Assembly: GCF_027000115.1 (NCBI RefSeq)
Contig: NZ_JALTON010000040.1
Span: 1-64,000 of the forward strand
Direction of reading: 5' to 3'
Source: Thiohalobacter sp.
Lineage (GTDB): Bacteria; Pseudomonadota; Gammaproteobacteria; Thiohalobacterales; Thiohalobacteraceae
DNA: 64,000 nucleotides
Shown piece after piece: positions 4,981 to 43,754 of the stretch. The position numbers were made by a program, and so were the translations under genes. The notes under the pieces were generated by a model, which did not search any database, was not told where the DNA came from, and saw only the letters and a program-made list of their open reading frames with translations. The stretch's first letter is position 1. Every line of letters begins with the position of its first letter.

Positions 4981-5002
4981 GTGCCCGGCCGGTCACCCCT
5001 GG

Positions 5003-5032
5003 GTAGGATAGGCAAAGGGAAGCGTGCCCATC
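5003..5032 (+). repeat. REP-like hairpin, left copy
   Basis: Head GTAG followed by GATAGGCA, a 10-base loop AAGGGAAGCG, and TGCCCATC. Only one position in the 8-bp stem deviates. GTAG-headed hairpins of this kind are the substrate type of REP-associated tyrosine (Y1) transposases; no such transposase is in the window. The inverted partner is at 5510-5539. Confidence 0.65.
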
Positions 5033-5047
5033 AGAACCCCGCAAGAA

Positions 5048-5074
5048 CGCCACGGACGACACGGAAGGCACGGA
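5048..5074 (+). repeat. 27-base dispersed repeat unit, copy 1
   Basis: Purine-rich unit beginning CGCCACGGACGACACGGAAG. The exact reverse complement (27 of 27 bases) is at 5467-5493, and a 24-of-27 match in the plus orientation is at 61689-61715 after the atp operon. It does not overlap any gene. Confidence 0.75.
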
Positions 5075-5275
5075 CAGAAGAATGATGCCGGGCTGGCAGG
5101 CAGCCAGACCGGCCACCGACCCGGGTTCCGGTCCCCTCTGCCGCCCCGAGCATCGCAGCGGGACGCGGATCAGGCCGCGCGAGTGTCTGAGCGCAGCGAG
5201 TTGCGCGCGGCCCCGCGGCCCGCGAGAAGCGCAGGGCACCCGAAGGGGGCGGCAGCGGGGCGGCCTTTCTTTTGG

Positions 5276-5307
5276 TTACTTTCCTTTGGCCGGGCAAAGA
5301 AAAGTAA
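5276..5307 (+). repeat. Hairpin repeat with A/T-rich 13-bp stem
   Basis: TTACTTTCCTTTG pairs with CAAAGAAAAGTAA across a GCCGGG loop, with one C-A mismatch in 13 positions. Flanking GGCGG and CCGCC can extend the stem. In this GC-rich context the A/T-rich stem stands out. Recurrent intergenic elements of this look exist in proteobacterial genomes; copy number here cannot be judged from one window. Confidence 0.6.
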
Positions 5308-5351
5308 GCCGCCCGGCAGGGGCGGAAGAAAGCGCGGCTCCCGCCCATCCT

Positions 5352-5432
5352 GTAGCCCGGACGCAGGCCCCCAGGGCCGTAATCCGGGAAACGCGGTTGT
5401 CCCCGGGTTGCGCTCCGCTCCACCCCGGCTAC
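5352..5432. repeat. GTAG...CTAC-bounded palindromic repeat
   Basis: Begins GTAGCCCGGACGCAGG and ends CACCCCGGCTAC. The ends are complementary (GTAGCCCGG with a near-match CCCGGCTAC), and TCCGGG/CCCGGG pairs lie inside. It has the form of a bipartite REP/BIME-like element and overlaps no gene. Confidence 0.55.
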
Positions 5433-5466
5433 GGCGTCAGCTGCGAGAGCCTAGCAGTTGATTGGA

Positions 5467-5493
5467 TCCGTGCCTTCCGTGTCGTCCGTGGCG
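5467..5493 (-). repeat. 27-base dispersed repeat unit, copy 2 (inverted)
   Basis: Exact reverse complement of the unit at 5048-5074. With it and the adjoining REP-like hairpins it forms the outer inverted repeat of the nest. Confidence 0.75.
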
Positions 5494-5509
5494 CACTTGT
5501 AGTTTTTCT

Positions 5510-5539
5510 GATGGGCACGCTTCGCTTTGCCCATCCTAC
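5510..5539 (-). repeat. REP-like hairpin, right copy (inverted)
   Basis: GATGGGCA, a 10-base loop and TGCCCATC form a perfect 8-bp stem, followed by CTAC (GTAG head on the minus strand). It is inverted relative to the copy at 5003-5032 and lies 21 bases past the trmL stop codon, so it will also be transcribed at the end of trmL mRNA. Confidence 0.65.
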
Positions 5540-5560
5540 CCGGGGCGAGCGGGTGGGCAC

Positions 5561-26144: not shown

Positions 26145-26372
26145 TCAGCCGCCCACGCGCACCAGGATGCGGATGTCCCGGTCCTGCTGCTCGGTGGCCA
26201 GCACCTGATGGCCATTGATGCGGCACCAGGTCGGGATGTCGTGCAGGGCGCCCGGGTCGGTGCAGTGCACCAGCAGCTCGTCACCCGGCGCCAGCCCGGC
26301 GATGGCATCCTGGGTGCGGATCACCGGGAGCGGACAGAGGATGTTGCGGGCATCCAGCTCGTGACGGCTCAC
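26145..26372 (-). CDS. TusA-family sulfur carrier protein
   Basis: 75 residues. TusA fold with the sulfur-carrying cysteine in NILCPLPVIRTQDAI (Cys13, CPxP motif) and a second cysteine pair later (HCTDPGAL, TWCRING). TusA proteins relay persulfide sulfur to tRNA thiolation or to sulfur oxidation. The ATG overlaps the stop of the PP-loop gene by 4 bases, so the two are translated together. That supports sulfur delivery to the PP-loop enzyme. Confidence 0.9.
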   Translation of the reverse strand: MSRHELDARNILCPLPVIRTQDAIAGLAPGDELLVHCTDPGALHDIPTWCRINGHQVLATEQQDRDIRILVRVGG

Positions 26373-27409
26373 AGCAGCCAGTCCCCGGGGATCTCGGCCG
26401 GTGGCAGGGGGCGAACCGTTGTCTCGCGCGGCTCGCCGCCCGGCGGAACGATGGCCACCGTGACCGCCTCGGCATCGCGGCCCTGGCCATAGCGGGCCAC
26501 CAACCGCGCGGCCAGCTCCAGATCCTCCGCCGAAGGCGTGCCATCGACCAGTGCCAGCGGACCCTTGTGGCTGGTGGCATGCAGATGGGTGAACTGCCGG
26601 CGATAGCCCTCCAGAAAGCGGTTCTCGCCTTCCTCGCGGCCGATGATCAGCTTGAAGTGCGGGGCGGGGCGGATGTGGCGGCCGACCTTGAGCAGCATGA
26701 TGTCGTCGAGTTCATAGCGCCGTTCGCCGCGCGCCGACCACAGGTCGGCCAGCTTGGCGGAATACTGGGCATCGGTGAGAAAGCAGCAGCCGCCGGCCGG
26801 CTGGGCATAGTCGGTGAAACCGTAGCGCGCCGCCAGCGCCATCTGCGGCTTGCGCGAGCGACCGCTGAAATCGTACAGGCGCTCCCGGTCCACCCAGCCC
26901 TCGCGCTCGGGCAGGGTCGGCGGCAGGTTCTTCGCGCACAGCGGCCGCAACAGCCGGTCCTCGGCACCGGACTCCTGCGCCACCAGCGGCAGGGTATCGG
27001 CGCGCTGCGACTTCGGCCGCTGGCCGACCACTTCGCCGGTGACGATGAAATCGAAGCCGTTGGCCTCGATCCACTCGGTGGCCTTGCGCACCATGAATAC
27101 CTTGCAGTCGAGACAGGGGTTGAGGTTGGCGCCGTATCCGTGCTTCGGATTGAGCACGATGTCCTTGTATTCCTCGATCACGTCGATGATGTGCAGCCTG
27201 ATGCCGAGTTGCTCCGCCACCCACAGGGCGTTGTTGCGCTTGGGCCGGGCACGGTCCTTCTTGCGAATGGCGTGGGTGTGGCCTTCGACGCAGAACCCCG
27301 TAAAGAAATTGATGCCCTCGACATGGATGCCCTGTTCCTGCACCACGCGCGCGGCAAGCATGGAATCGAGTCCGCCGGAGATGAGGGCAACGGCTTTGCG
27401 CTGGGTCAT
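26369..27409 (-). CDS. PP-loop ATPase, ThiI/MnmA-like putative thiolase
   Basis: 346 residues. N-terminal adenylating PP-loop SGGLDS (11-16), then HAIRKKDRARPKRNNAL and cysteine motif NPCLDC (Cys99/Cys102), a common site in tRNA thiolation enzymes. Cys208/Cys209 lie in PAGGCCFLTD. The C-terminal third, with LKVGRHIRPAPHFKLIIGRE, resembles the NFACT-R-like RNA-binding domain. Related proteins are usually labelled tRNA thiouridylase-like, but the substrate is unknown. It lacks the THUMP and rhodanese domains of ThiI. The coupled TusA supports sulfur transfer to RNA or another acceptor. Confidence 0.75.
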   Translation of the reverse strand: MTQRKAVALISGGLDSMLAARVVQEQGIHVEGINFFTGFCVEGHTHAIRKKDRARPKRNNALWVAEQLGIRLHIIDVIEEYKDIVLNPKHGYGANLNPCLDCKVFMVRKATEWIEANGFDFIVTGEVVGQRPKSQRADTLPLVAQESGAEDRLLRPLCAKNLPPTLPEREGWVDRERLYDFSGRSRKPQMALAARYGFTDYAQPAGGCCFLTDAQYSAKLADLWSARGERRYELDDIMLLKVGRHIRPAPHFKLIIGREEGENRFLEGYRRQFTHLHATSHKGPLALVDGTPSAEDLELAARLVARYGQGRDAEAVTVAIVPPGGEPRETTVRPLPPAEIPGDWLL

Positions 27410-27539
27410 GGCACGAGACCGGATACGGCTGCAAGGGGAGGGGCATTCTACAGCGCGGCCGCGGCCGGCGGCCAGCGCGCCTATTGCACCAGGGGCTGCG
27501 GATGATGGCGGATTTGCAGCCGGGCTCGGGAGGCGCTGG

Positions 27540-27573
27540 CACTCAAGCCGTAGCCGTCGCTACGGCTTGAGTG
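27540..27573. repeat. Perfect 15-bp hairpin inside the MITE-like element
   Basis: CACTCAAGCCGTAGC and GCTACGGCTTGAGTG form a perfect 15-bp stem with a CGTC loop. Outer complementary segments (GGCGGATTT with AAATCCGCC, GCTCGG with CCGAGC) extend the cruciform to 27507-27604. No T-run flanks it, so it is not a typical terminator. Confidence 0.85.
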
Positions 27574-27603
27574 AAGCACCCCCGAGGCCGAGCGAAAATC
27601 CGC

Positions 27604-27730
27604 CAGGGCCGCAGCAGGCAGCGGGCGGGCACAAATCGTACCCCGGGCCACGGGCAAAAAACCCGGTTCATTGTCCACCAGGACAACAAGCTACCCGCCG
27701 CCCGCTTCCGCCCTGGTGCAATAGGCGGGC
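27604..27730 (-). repeat. Dispersed palindromic repeat, copy A
   Basis: In minus orientation it matches copies B (28398-28544) and C (43621-43754): GGAAGCGGGCGGC near one end, CAATGAACCGG in the middle, GGTACGATTTGTGCCCGCCC and CTGCTGCGGCCCTGG at the other end. The GC-rich ends are complementary. Confidence 0.75.
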
Positions 27731-27769
27731 TGGCGCGGCAACCGCCGTGTCGGTGGGGAACAGGGCCGC

Positions 27770-28345
27770 TCAGTGGCGCCGGCGGGGCGGTGCGTCGAGC
27801 GGCATGGGCGCGCTGCCGGTGGTCTCGGCCAGCCGGCGGCGGGCATGTTCGCTGCCGGTCTCCAGCCAGATCTCGGCCTGCACGAGGGGATCCAGTGTCG
27901 CCTGCGGGTCCATTTCGCGCATGGCCGAGAGCACGTCGCGCAGGGACACGAAGCCCTCCGACAGCCGGGCATAGACCTCGGCCGCGGCGTGGCGCAACCG
28001 CTCGGCCAGCAATCCGTAGGCGCTGCGGCCCATGTCCACGTAATAGCCGACCCGCACCAGCCGGCGCTCGGCCCGCTCCGGATAGAACCCGGAATAGAGC
28101 AGGCACTGGTCGCCGACATCGCGCAACTGTTCCGTCTGCAGCGCGCCCTGCGCACGCATGGAGCGCAGGAACTCCAGCGCCATCACCCGGCTGGCCAGAT
28201 CCGGGCGCGCGGCAAAGCGCATGAGCAGAAACACCAGGTAGCTTTCCAGCTCCTCGCCCAGCCGGCACTCGCAGGCCGCCTCGGCCTCGCTGACCAGGGC
28301 GTGCCACTGGGCGGTCGAGGTGGGTCCCAGCACGATGCGTGGCAT
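27770..28345 (-). CDS. Conserved hypothetical protein
   Basis: 191 residues, function not recognised. The ATG at 28345 has a perfect AGGAGG ribosome binding site 6 bases upstream. The protein is mostly helical and soluble: PRIVLGPTSTAQWHALVSEA, then CRLGEELESYLVFLLMRFAA, FLRSMRAQGALQTEQLRDVG, and YYVDMGRSAYGLLAERLRHA. There is no signal peptide or membrane segment. Three cysteines (two in EAACECRL, one in GDQCLL) are present. It is flanked on both sides by copies of the dispersed palindromic repeat, so it appears to be a single-gene unit. Confidence 0.8.
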   Translation of the reverse strand: MPRIVLGPTSTAQWHALVSEAEAACECRLGEELESYLVFLLMRFAARPDLASRVMALEFLRSMRAQGALQTEQLRDVGDQCLLYSGFYPERAERRLVRVGYYVDMGRSAYGLLAERLRHAAAEVYARLSEGFVSLRDVLSAMREMDPQATLDPLVQAEIWLETGSEHARRRLAETTGSAPMPLDAPPRRRH

Positions 28346-28397: not shown

Positions 28398-28544
28398 TTT
28401 AGCCCGCATAGTGCACCCGGGCGGAAGCGGGCGGCAGGCAACGGGTCGTCCCGGCGGGCAATGAACCGGATTTCTTGCCCATGGCCCGGCGTACGATGTG
28501 TGCCCGCCCGCATCCTGCTGCGGCCCTGGCGCAACATGCGAGCC
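28398..28544 (+). repeat. Dispersed palindromic repeat, copy B
   Basis: Begins TTTAGCCCGCATAGTGCACC and ends CTGGCGCAACATGCGAGCC; the ends are imperfect inverted repeats. Inside, GGAAGCGGGCGG pairs with CCGCCCGCATCC, and GGGCAA/TTGCCC flank a TGAACCGGATTT loop. It is the most complete copy, shared with 27604-27730 and 43621-43754. Confidence 0.8.
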
Positions 28545-32460: not shown

Positions 32461-32838
32461 ATGAGCGAACGCAACCCCGATTCCTACCAAGCCATGCTCG
32501 ATGCCGTGCAGGCCTTCCACGACAAGCACGACTTTCGCAACACCGGCGGCGAGGAACTGACCTACCGCATCGCGCTGATGGCCGAGGAGCTGGGCGAGAT
32601 CGCCGAGGCGGTCACCAAGGGCAAGGGCAGGGAGGTGCTGGCCGAGGAGGTCGCCGACCTGTTCATCCTGCTCATCGGCACAGCCATCTCGGCGGACTTC
32701 GACCTGCGCGCCGCCTTCTGGAAGAAGATGGATCGCATCATGCAGCGCCCGTCACGCATGGTGAACGGGCGTATCCGCGTTTCCGAATTCCGCGACATGG
32801 ACTCACCCGAAAAGTGCACGAAGCCGATTAAAGGTTGA
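32461..32838 (+). CDS. MazG-like nucleotide pyrophosphohydrolase
   Basis: About 125 residues from the ATG at 32461, with TAGGTGA upstream; a GTG at 32452 directly after the glyS stop is the alternative. All-alpha NTP-PPase fold: AEELGEIAEAVTKG and, about 12 residues later, EEVADLFILL make up the EExxE...ExxD Mg2+ site. Likely a house-cleaning enzyme acting on non-canonical nucleotides; the substrate is not known. It is probably cotranscribed with glyS. Confidence 0.8.
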   Translation: MSERNPDSYQAMLDAVQAFHDKHDFRNTGGEELTYRIALMAEELGEIAEAVTKGKGREVLAEEVADLFILLIGTAISADFDLRAAFWKKMDRIMQRPSRMVNGRIRVSEFRDMDSPEKCTKPIKG

Positions 32839-32970
32839 GGTATGCCGATGTTTACAAGGAGTATTTCTCGTATATCAGCGGGTAGCGGATTGTTACCGCA
32901 CCGCTCTGCCGGCGTCTGCACGCCAGGCGCACATCCATCCGGCAGCTTCGTGCAGCTTTCGGGCTAAGGC

Positions 32971-41986: not shown

Positions 41987-43621
41987 ATGGACAACACCCG
42001 CCTGCTGCTTTTCATTGCCCTGTCCTTCACCGCCCTGCTGCTCTGGGAGGCCTGGCAGCGCGACTACGGCGCCGCGCCGCAGCCCGTGGCGACCGAGCAG
42101 GCCGAGAGCCCCGGTGCCGCGACAACCACCGGCGCCGATGTCCCCAGTGCCGCGCCGGCCGCGGCCGCTGTCCCGGAAACCCCGTCACGGCAGGCCGATA
42201 CCGCGCCCACCGTTACCGTGGTCACGGATGTGCTGGAGGTCCACATCAGTACCCGCGGCGGTGACCTGCGCGAGGCCGACCTGCTCGACTATCCGGTGAG
42301 TGTCGATCGGCCGGACGAGCCGGTGCGGCTGCTGGAGGATACGCCCGGCCGCTTCTTCGTCGCCCAGTCCGGCCTGCGCGGCAGCGGCAGTGCCGAGCCC
42401 ACCCACTACGCCCGCTACACGGCTGCTGCCAGTGAATACCGCCTGGCCGACGGCCAGCAGGAACTGGTGGTGCCGCTGGAATGGGTATCGCCCGAAGGGG
42501 TGCGGGTGATCAAGCGCTATCGCTTCAGCCGCGGCGATCACCTGGTCGTGGTCGAGCACGAGGTGCGCAATGGCTCGGGGGAGGTCTGGACCGGACGCCA
42601 GTACCGTCAGCTGGTACGCAGCAAGCCCACCCAGTCCCGAGGCATGATCTATACCTACACCGGCGGCGTCATCTACAGCCCGGAGGAGAAATACGAAAAG
42701 TATGACTTCTCTGACATGGCCGATGTCCCCCTGTCGCGTGACATCACCAACGGCTGGGCTGCGGTCATCGAACATTATTTCCTGGCCGCCTGGGTACCCG
42801 AGCGGGGTGAGCCCAATCACTACTATTCCAAGGCGCTGCCCAACGACCGTTACGTACTCGGCCTCATCGGCCCCGACCGCAGCCTGGCGCCCGGCGAGTC
42901 GACCCTGTTCCGCAGCCAGCTCTATGTCGGGCCCAAGATCCAGTCCCGGCTGGAGCAGATCGCCGAGGGGCTGGAACTGACCGTCGACTATGGTGCGTTG
43001 ACCATCCTCGCCAAGCCCATCTTCTGGCTGCTGCAGAAGATCCACGCCCTGATCGGCAACTGGGGCTGGTCCATCATTCTGCTGACCCTGCTCATCAAGC
43101 TGGCCTTCTACAAGCCCTCCGAGATGAGCTACAAGTCGATGGCGCAGATGCGCAAGCTGGCGCCGCGGCTGCAGGCGCTCAAGGAGCGTTACGGCGACGA
43201 CAAGCAGAAGCTCAACCAGGCCATGATGGACCTGTACCGGACCGAGAAGATCAACCCGCTCGGGGGCTGCCTGCCGATCCTGGTGCAGATCCCGGTGTTC
43301 ATCGCGCTGTACTGGGTGCTGCTGGAGAGCGTCGAACTGCGCCAGGCACCCTTCATTCTCTGGATCCAGGACCTGTCCACCAGGGACCCCTACTTCGTGC
43401 TGCCATTGATCATGGGCGTGACCATGTTCATCCAGCAGAAGCTCAATCCCGCGCCGCTGGATCCCATCCAGGCCAAGGTGATGATGGCGCTCCCGGTGGT
43501 GTTCACCGTGATGTTCGCCTTCTTTCCCTCGGGTCTGGTGCTGTACTGGGTGACCAACAACGTGCTGTCCATTGCCCAGCAGTGGGTCATCACCCGGCGC
43601 GTGGAGGCCGGCGGCAAATAG
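41987..43621 (+). CDS. yidC: Membrane protein insertase YidC
   Basis: 544 residues (E. coli 548). N-terminal transmembrane helix (RLLLFIALSFTALLLWEAW), an Ala/Pro-rich linker, a large periplasmic domain (about 75-345), then the conserved five-helix core with WGWSIILLTLLIKLAFYKPS, the cytoplasmic loop MAQMRKLAPRLQALKERYGD, NPLGGCLPILVQIPVFIALY and the C-terminal VLYWVTNNVLSIAQQW. Inserts inner-membrane proteins, including ATP synthase subunit c. The stop codon touches copy C of the dispersed repeat. Confidence 0.97.
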   Translation: MDNTRLLLFIALSFTALLLWEAWQRDYGAAPQPVATEQAESPGAATTTGADVPSAAPAAAAVPETPSRQADTAPTVTVVTDVLEVHISTRGGDLREADLLDYPVSVDRPDEPVRLLEDTPGRFFVAQSGLRGSGSAEPTHYARYTAAASEYRLADGQQELVVPLEWVSPEGVRVIKRYRFSRGDHLVVVEHEVRNGSGEVWTGRQYRQLVRSKPTQSRGMIYTYTGGVIYSPEEKYEKYDFSDMADVPLSRDITNGWAAVIEHYFLAAWVPERGEPNHYYSKALPNDRYVLGLIGPDRSLAPGESTLFRSQLYVGPKIQSRLEQIAEGLELTVDYGALTILAKPIFWLLQKIHALIGNWGWSIILLTLLIKLAFYKPSEMSYKSMAQMRKLAPRLQALKERYGDDKQKLNQAMMDLYRTEKINPLGGCLPILVQIPVFIALYWVLLESVELRQAPFILWIQDLSTRDPYFVLPLIMGVTMFIQQKLNPAPLDPIQAKVMMALPVVFTVMFAFFPSGLVLYWVTNNVLSIAQQWVITRRVEAGGK

Positions 43622-43754
43622 TACCAGGTCGGAAGCGGGCGGCAGGCAAGTCGTTGCGTAACCAGGCGATGAACCGGATTTCGTAGCCATGGTCCAGAGT
43701 ACACTTTGTGCCTGCCCGCATCCTGCTGCGGCCCTGGTGCAACATGCGGGCTAG
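43621..43754 (+). repeat. Dispersed palindromic repeat, copy C
   Basis: Fills the 148-base gap between yidC and mnmE. Shares with copies A and B the segments GGAAGCGGGCGGCAGGCA, GATGAACCGGATTTC, TTTGTGCCTGCCCGCATCC and TGCTGCGGCCCTGGTGCAAC. Being in the same orientation as transcription, it will be part of a yidC-mnmE read-through RNA. Confidence 0.8.

Follow-up and report, generated by a model that had tools for sequence, protein, structure and literature searches.

Small gene-free insertion elements are usually viewed as deletion products whose interior is irrelevant. In the stretch of DNA analysed here (the window; 64,000 nucleotides from Thiohalobacter sp.), the gap between a PP-loop gene and a hypothetical gene holds a segment that the original prediction had read as a MITE-like element of 264 bp with 24-bp inverted ends. 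The locus raises two questions: whether this segment is a mobile element, and whether what lies between its ends matters for its mobility.

Boundaries, copies and target duplication

The boundaries of the element were set by alignment of 24 copies from the same genome (Table 1). The inverted ends are real, as the arms 27471-27494 and 27711-27734 are 96% complementary over 24 nt. However, these arms consist of a 20-bp terminal inverted repeat and a 4-bp mutated target duplication (CCAG/CTGG), so the outermost 4 bases had been wrongly counted in and the predicted extent of 264 bp (27471-27734) is corrected to 254 bp. CCAG and CTGG are each one change away from CTAG, which is duplicated more often than any other flank in this genome. 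No protein gene was found inside the element, in agreement with the original prediction: the sole candidate frame scored 19 with a custom coding model, below the cut-off of 25 adopted in later scans. The cruciform exists, at 27540-27573, but as the tip of a 121-nt hairpin, and the reported dispersed repeat corresponds to the element's right half, which remains in the copies whose hairpin is deleted.

Table 1. Coordinates of the element, its parts and related copies in the window
Feature	Position	Strand	Remarks
Left target-site duplication, CCAG	27472-27475	none	Derived from CTAG
Whole element, 254 bp	27476-27729	+	Oriented with the hairpin in the 5′ half
Left terminal inverted repeat	27476-27493	+	Genome consensus CCCGCATATTGCACCAGG
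Hairpin domain, 121 nt	27495-27615	+	Covariance model R1: 109 bits on +, 50 on -
Hairpin tip	27540-27573	+	Perfect 15-bp arms, loop of 4 nt
Variable 3′ domain	27616-27711	+	The dispersed repeat of the original prediction
Motif ACAAATCGTAC	27631-27641	+	Related forms directly 3′ of the hairpin in 52/68 elements
Right terminal inverted repeat	27712-27729	-	Alignment of genome copies and end matches
Right target-site duplication, CTGG	27730-27733	none	Derived from CTAG
Second family copy, hairpin deleted	28403-28542	-	Flanks TTAG/CCAG
Third family copy, hairpin deleted	43611-43750	-	One damaged end

The other copies that the original prediction called for are abundant in the genome of origin (2.65 Mb in 63 contigs). 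At least 24 places cover at least 245 of the 286 query bases at 83 to 100% identity, a count that is a lower bound because 40 of 215 candidates were scored. The 18-bp end matched 172 times with up to 3 mismatches, against once for the reversed pattern. Together, these numbers show that the repetition is not due to chance. Four contigs of this genome (C27, C30, C36 and C55) begin or finish inside element copies or within about 100 bases of them, and the assembly was probably broken by the repeat.

To analyse the flanks, 65 non-overlapping elements, one per place, were kept from 103 pairs; 37 belong to the genome of origin and 28 to stretches fetched from G004, the complete genome of a member of the same family. 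The flanking 4-mers were identical in 18 of the 37 elements (shuffled mean 5.7; 0 of 5000 shuffles reached 18) and in 14 of the 28 (shuffled mean 7.3; 0 of 5000 reached 14). The commonest duplicated flank, CTAG, is self-complementary. As asymmetric flanks are also duplicated (CTAT, ATAG, CTTA, CAAG, TTAG and CTAA), the target duplication is 4 bp long and not TA; its preferred form is YTAR. Among the 23 elements of the genome of origin with a non-palindromic flank, identical direct 4-mers were present in only 4 and inverted ones in 2. Small derivatives contributed further duplications (CTAA, CTAG and TTCA). YTAR is scarce, with 69 unoccupied sites, 52 outside and 17 inside genes, in 169,617 bases of the window and of loci from the genome of origin.

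The segments 26301-27403 and 27851-28333 of the window are syntenic with G004 at 82% and 81% identity, respectively. In the window, 447 bp separate them; in G004 the interval has 169 bp, 278 bp fewer, and contains no element. The look for empty sites in relatives that the original prediction proposed could be answered at the level of the spacer; joined flanks of the window copy gave no spanning match, the divergence being too high to resolve the junction to the base. With its terminal inverted repeats, many copies, 4-bp target duplication and lack of a gene, and with a relative whose syntenic spacer does not contain it, the element bears out the MITE-like reading; no autonomous partner with matching ends was found among the transposase types and end pairs examined. 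That reading nevertheless overlooked the nature of the interior, a folded domain that is conserved and common to many families.

Conservation of the hairpin and spread of the family

An exact scan of 84,980 species genomes with the end pattern returned at least 116 stretches, and the matches listed include Thioalkalivibrio, Microbulbifer, Halomonas, Thiohalobacter, Arenicellales, Chromatiales and many uncultured Gammaproteobacteria. Among sampled genomes, model R1 matched 37 of 369 from the class (E ≤ 0.01; 29 families) and 7 of 398 from the phylum (E ≤ 1e-4). The latter seven are the genome of origin and six genomes of a single family outside Gammaproteobacteria, in most of which the ends are related, the flanks are YTAR-like and the hairpin follows the same plan. 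An end-like sequence was present at the expected 18-nt offset in 22 of 29 loci found with R1. One Rhodobacteraceae contig (L165) is almost identical to a Chromatiales contig (L246) from a similarly named project, and its assignment may be a binning error. No match was obtained in 72,556 plasmid records (three queries) or in 50,697 phage records (one query), and two viral-contig matches to the short end pattern were discarded because no element surrounds either. We found no publication describing the element in the literature searched.

The interior of the relatives follows a common order: CGGATGATGGCG, a hairpin with CATAGC-GCTATG-like tip arms, often an ACAAA-TGTAC motif, and then GCCGCCTTGGTGCAATATGCGGG. 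The ACAAA-TGTAC motif was present in 52 of 68 elements, against 4% in shuffled sequences. Several of the listed elements depart from this order and represent other element classes, whose ends are the same but whose long hairpin differs in sequence. We cut the 5′ domain from each predicted fold, which yielded 90 domains from 99 elements; although the classes differ in sequence, the hairpin measures 120 to 124 nt in 65 of these domains.

We then asked how well the pairing is preserved. Alignment A2 omits two loci, L227 and L248, that were both in the first alignment. Over 21 rows, 91.9% of the cells were paired and 27 of the 42 pairs showed a double-sided change, while sliding the partner made pairing fall to 22 to 40%. 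Over 81 model-aligned rows, 90.5% of the cells were paired (at most 39.3% when slid), 40 of 42 pairs had a double-sided change, and double-changed cells numbered 612 versus 164 after shuffling; this alignment was fitted to the structure, and four of its rows are the opposite strand of other rows. As judged from the aligned sequences, pairing is maintained through compensatory changes across many bacterial families.

The mispairs were examined for a bias towards one strand. Between lineages (19 rows below 85% identity), G.T exceeded A.C by 49 to 14 (p = 1e-5), and by 20 to 7 (p = 0.02) after removal of six poor or G.U-fixed pairs. Within the genome of origin the two were balanced (19 and 18), and recent copies thus show no sign of selection on one strand. 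One strand therefore seems to be preferred when lineages are compared, which does not hold for recent copies, and it is possible that the hairpin acts as RNA. No Rfam family matched within the element at its gathering score. Sub-threshold matches to microRNA families in the element are probably palindrome noise, and the sole match to exceed its gathering score was to a glycine riboswitch in L206, at a position not covered by the elements.

In some copies, such as C21:3472, C40:133085 and the window copy, a private change at one end has its counterpart at the other, and in some cases this extends to the target duplication. In the genome of origin, 11 end pairs with private changes were identical, versus 4.5 after shuffling, which suggests arm-to-arm correction or selection for pairing. 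The former is what one would expect of an ordinary MITE, an internal-deletion derivative of an IS that depends on its ends alone; the palindrome would then have no role of its own, and template-switch correction between the arms would produce the matched changes. The ends, the target duplication and the absence of a gene all fit such an origin, as do the balanced G.T and A.C mispairs in the genome of origin and the matched difference between CCAG and CTGG at the window copy, which arm-to-arm correction predicts. Correction should, however, erase the mismatched loops, and these are conserved, with hardly any variation in columns such as GGA and GA/GA. In addition, the fold and its near-constant length are retained from family to family, with a median row identity of 65%, and the excess of G.T between lineages is not predicted by correction alone. 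We thus consider this explanation unlikely, though it deserves to be kept in mind.

A stop codon adjoins 19 of the 65 elements of the genome of origin and G004, the target duplication containing the stop, compared with 30 of 235 free YTAR sites outside genes (odds ratio 2.8, p = 0.004). This adjacency and the G.T excess between lineages would be accounted for if the element were a structured RNA or a transcription terminator that serves the host and was spread by selection, with mobility being secondary. That scenario appears improbable to us, as the patchy distribution (37 of 369 genomes), the widely unequal copy numbers, the decay of many copies and the solo ends, which show no orientation bias to gene starts, fit a parasite better. 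A promoter role was considered for the solo ends, some of which are upstream of genes, but was rejected, as gene ends outnumber gene starts when they are read inward: the 33 solo ends outside genes in the genome of origin lead to a gene start in 8 cases, to a gene end in 21 and to no nearby gene in 4 (outward, 16 starts, 16 ends and 1 without a gene). Some solo ends are no more than the 3′ end of elements, which is conserved.

Hairpin loss and a model for mobility

The genome of origin also contains copies of about 140 bp without the hairpin, including the two in Table 1, micro-copies of 29 to 36 bp with intact duplications (L088 and L079), and solo ends. The junctions of these derivatives are compatible with deletion between the short direct repeats CCAGGG or GCGGGC. 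We built a tree of copies from the right half shared by 33 of the 37 elements of this genome, omitting three that scored low and one without the junction. Its 11 hairpin-less rows do not form a clade; they require 10 label changes, against 9.3 for shuffled labels, and supported neighbours mix both types, as shown by hairpin-less C12:188 beside full-length C39:113310 (100/91). In contrast to this scatter, identical right halves occur in three rows, each of them full length. The hairpin was thus lost repeatedly, and as far as can be seen its loss is a dead end, with hairpin-less copies not amplifying. Scattered hairpin-less copies are nevertheless to be expected of deletion-prone palindromes in any case, and a few might have moved.

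Altogether, we propose that the segment is probably a non-autonomous insertion element of the MITE class, about 240 to 330 bp long, that is mobilised in trans and requires its hairpin in cis. A transposase encoded elsewhere or already lost would be supplied in trans, cut at the CCCG ends and stagger the target by 4 bp; the ends, the duplication and the spacer comparison point to such an enzyme. The hairpin would be needed in cis for mobility, acting either as RNA or as a folded single strand, such that only full-length copies multiply. This requirement is suggested by what becomes of hairpin-less copies and by a fold that is conserved and nearly constant in length. After insertion, the palindrome would often be deleted between the CCAGGG or GCGGGC repeats, leaving remnants of about 140 bp, of about 30 bp, or solo ends. 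A more daring proposal, which we hold to be rather doubtful, is that the hairpin of one strand, in the form of RNA or single-stranded DNA, serves the YTAR-duplicating enzyme as a structural cofactor or measuring device, and that the family is an ancient class of hairpin-guided mobile DNA found in Gammaproteobacteria and at least one other proteobacterial class. Since the interior kept one fold and a near-fixed length in many families and hairpin-less copies seem not to multiply, the family represents a sharp, testable case for internal structure driving mobility, and it points to a YTAR-targeting transposase.

Candidate enzymes and known systems

Target duplications of 4 bp of the TTAA or YTAR type are made by IS1380/piggyBac, IS701 and IS5-group elements, and the ends of IS1380 and piggyBac start with CC. 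The element resembles all of them in its 4-bp duplication and the latter two in its CC-starting ends; it differs in that none of the genes of the tested families found here has its ends. None of the DDE_Tnp_1, IS1380-type and RAYT genes examined bears the ends of the element, no IS701-type gene scored above the cut-off, and the transposase with matching ends that the original prediction sought in the lineage was not encountered among these types. DDE_Tnp_1 was not found in the genome of origin, and the DDE_Tnp_1 genes of G004 and G008 were rejected as partners because they do not carry the ends, with 3 of 14 loci having matches somewhere in the flank. The IS701-type transposase (PF13546, DDE_5) was above the cut-off in 0 of 8 element-bearing genomes and the IS1380-type (PF13701, DDE_Tnp_1_4) in 2 of 20, where the loci examined had no bordering ends.

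The genome of origin encodes a single Y1_Tnp (RAYT) protein, and hairpins dominate REPINs and the element alike, as expected if the latter were a REPIN-like element moved by RAYT via single-stranded DNA hairpins. We find this highly improbable: the RAYT gene sits among GTAGGATGGGCAAAG repeats and is not bordered by CCCGCATATTGCACC ends, and the element has a clear 4-bp target duplication, unlike single-strand HUH transposition, which to our knowledge produces none. Repeats of the GTAGGATGGGCAAAG type also occur in inverted pairs, at 4997-5545 of the window and in L098 (G000:C58).

End pairs 0.5 to 4 kb apart were also sought among the loci examined as candidates for an autonomous element. The clearest long pair (L219, 1802 bp) encloses a porin-like gene and no transposase, and L184, L195 and L210 have host genes inside. 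At L219:1351-3156, the porin-like gene lies between an outer end and a complete element, with CTAG on both sides of the 1.8-kb unit, which is possibly a composite with cargo. We know of no autonomous partner for many MITE families, and the missing partner thus weakens only the descent from a known IS.

According to the parts of a 2007 review consulted here (PMC2229807), known bacterial MITEs are small, hairpin-forming and mostly TA-flanked, and their enzymes are unknown save for RUP, for which IS630-Spn1 was proposed as the transposase source. As described there, Correia/NEMIS, ERIC (IRU/RU-1) and RUP are about 100 to 200 bp long and A+T-rich, with TA at most termini. They share with the present element small size, lack of genes, multiple copies, inverted ends, a target duplication and transcripts that would form long stem-loops. 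Unlike them, the present element is 240 to 330 bp long and G+C-rich, makes a 4-bp YTAR duplication, has a terminal stem, a 120- to 124-nt hairpin and a variable second domain, and has relatives in many families. YPAL/RU-2 of Yersinia is likewise palindromic and mobile, with target duplications, no A+T richness and termini without TA, but in the portions of its descriptions consulted it is 168 bp long, with internal rather than terminal inverted repeats and duplications of 3 to 26 bp (PMC2229807, PMC2759123). No sequence likeness to RU-2 was seen when the letters published in these portions were compared by eye rather than by alignment. The family works like known bacterial MITEs; it differs from those published descriptions in the 4-bp YTAR duplication, the G+C-rich two-domain fold, the near-constant hairpin length and the breadth of hosts.

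The window holds one further insertion, of 158 bp, at 32806-32963. It has CCCGAAAAGTGCACGAAG and CTTCGTGCAGCTTTCGGG as ends and YTAR-like flanks (CTCA/CTAA), is not present at the syntenic site of G004, and is probably a divergent member of the same group of elements.
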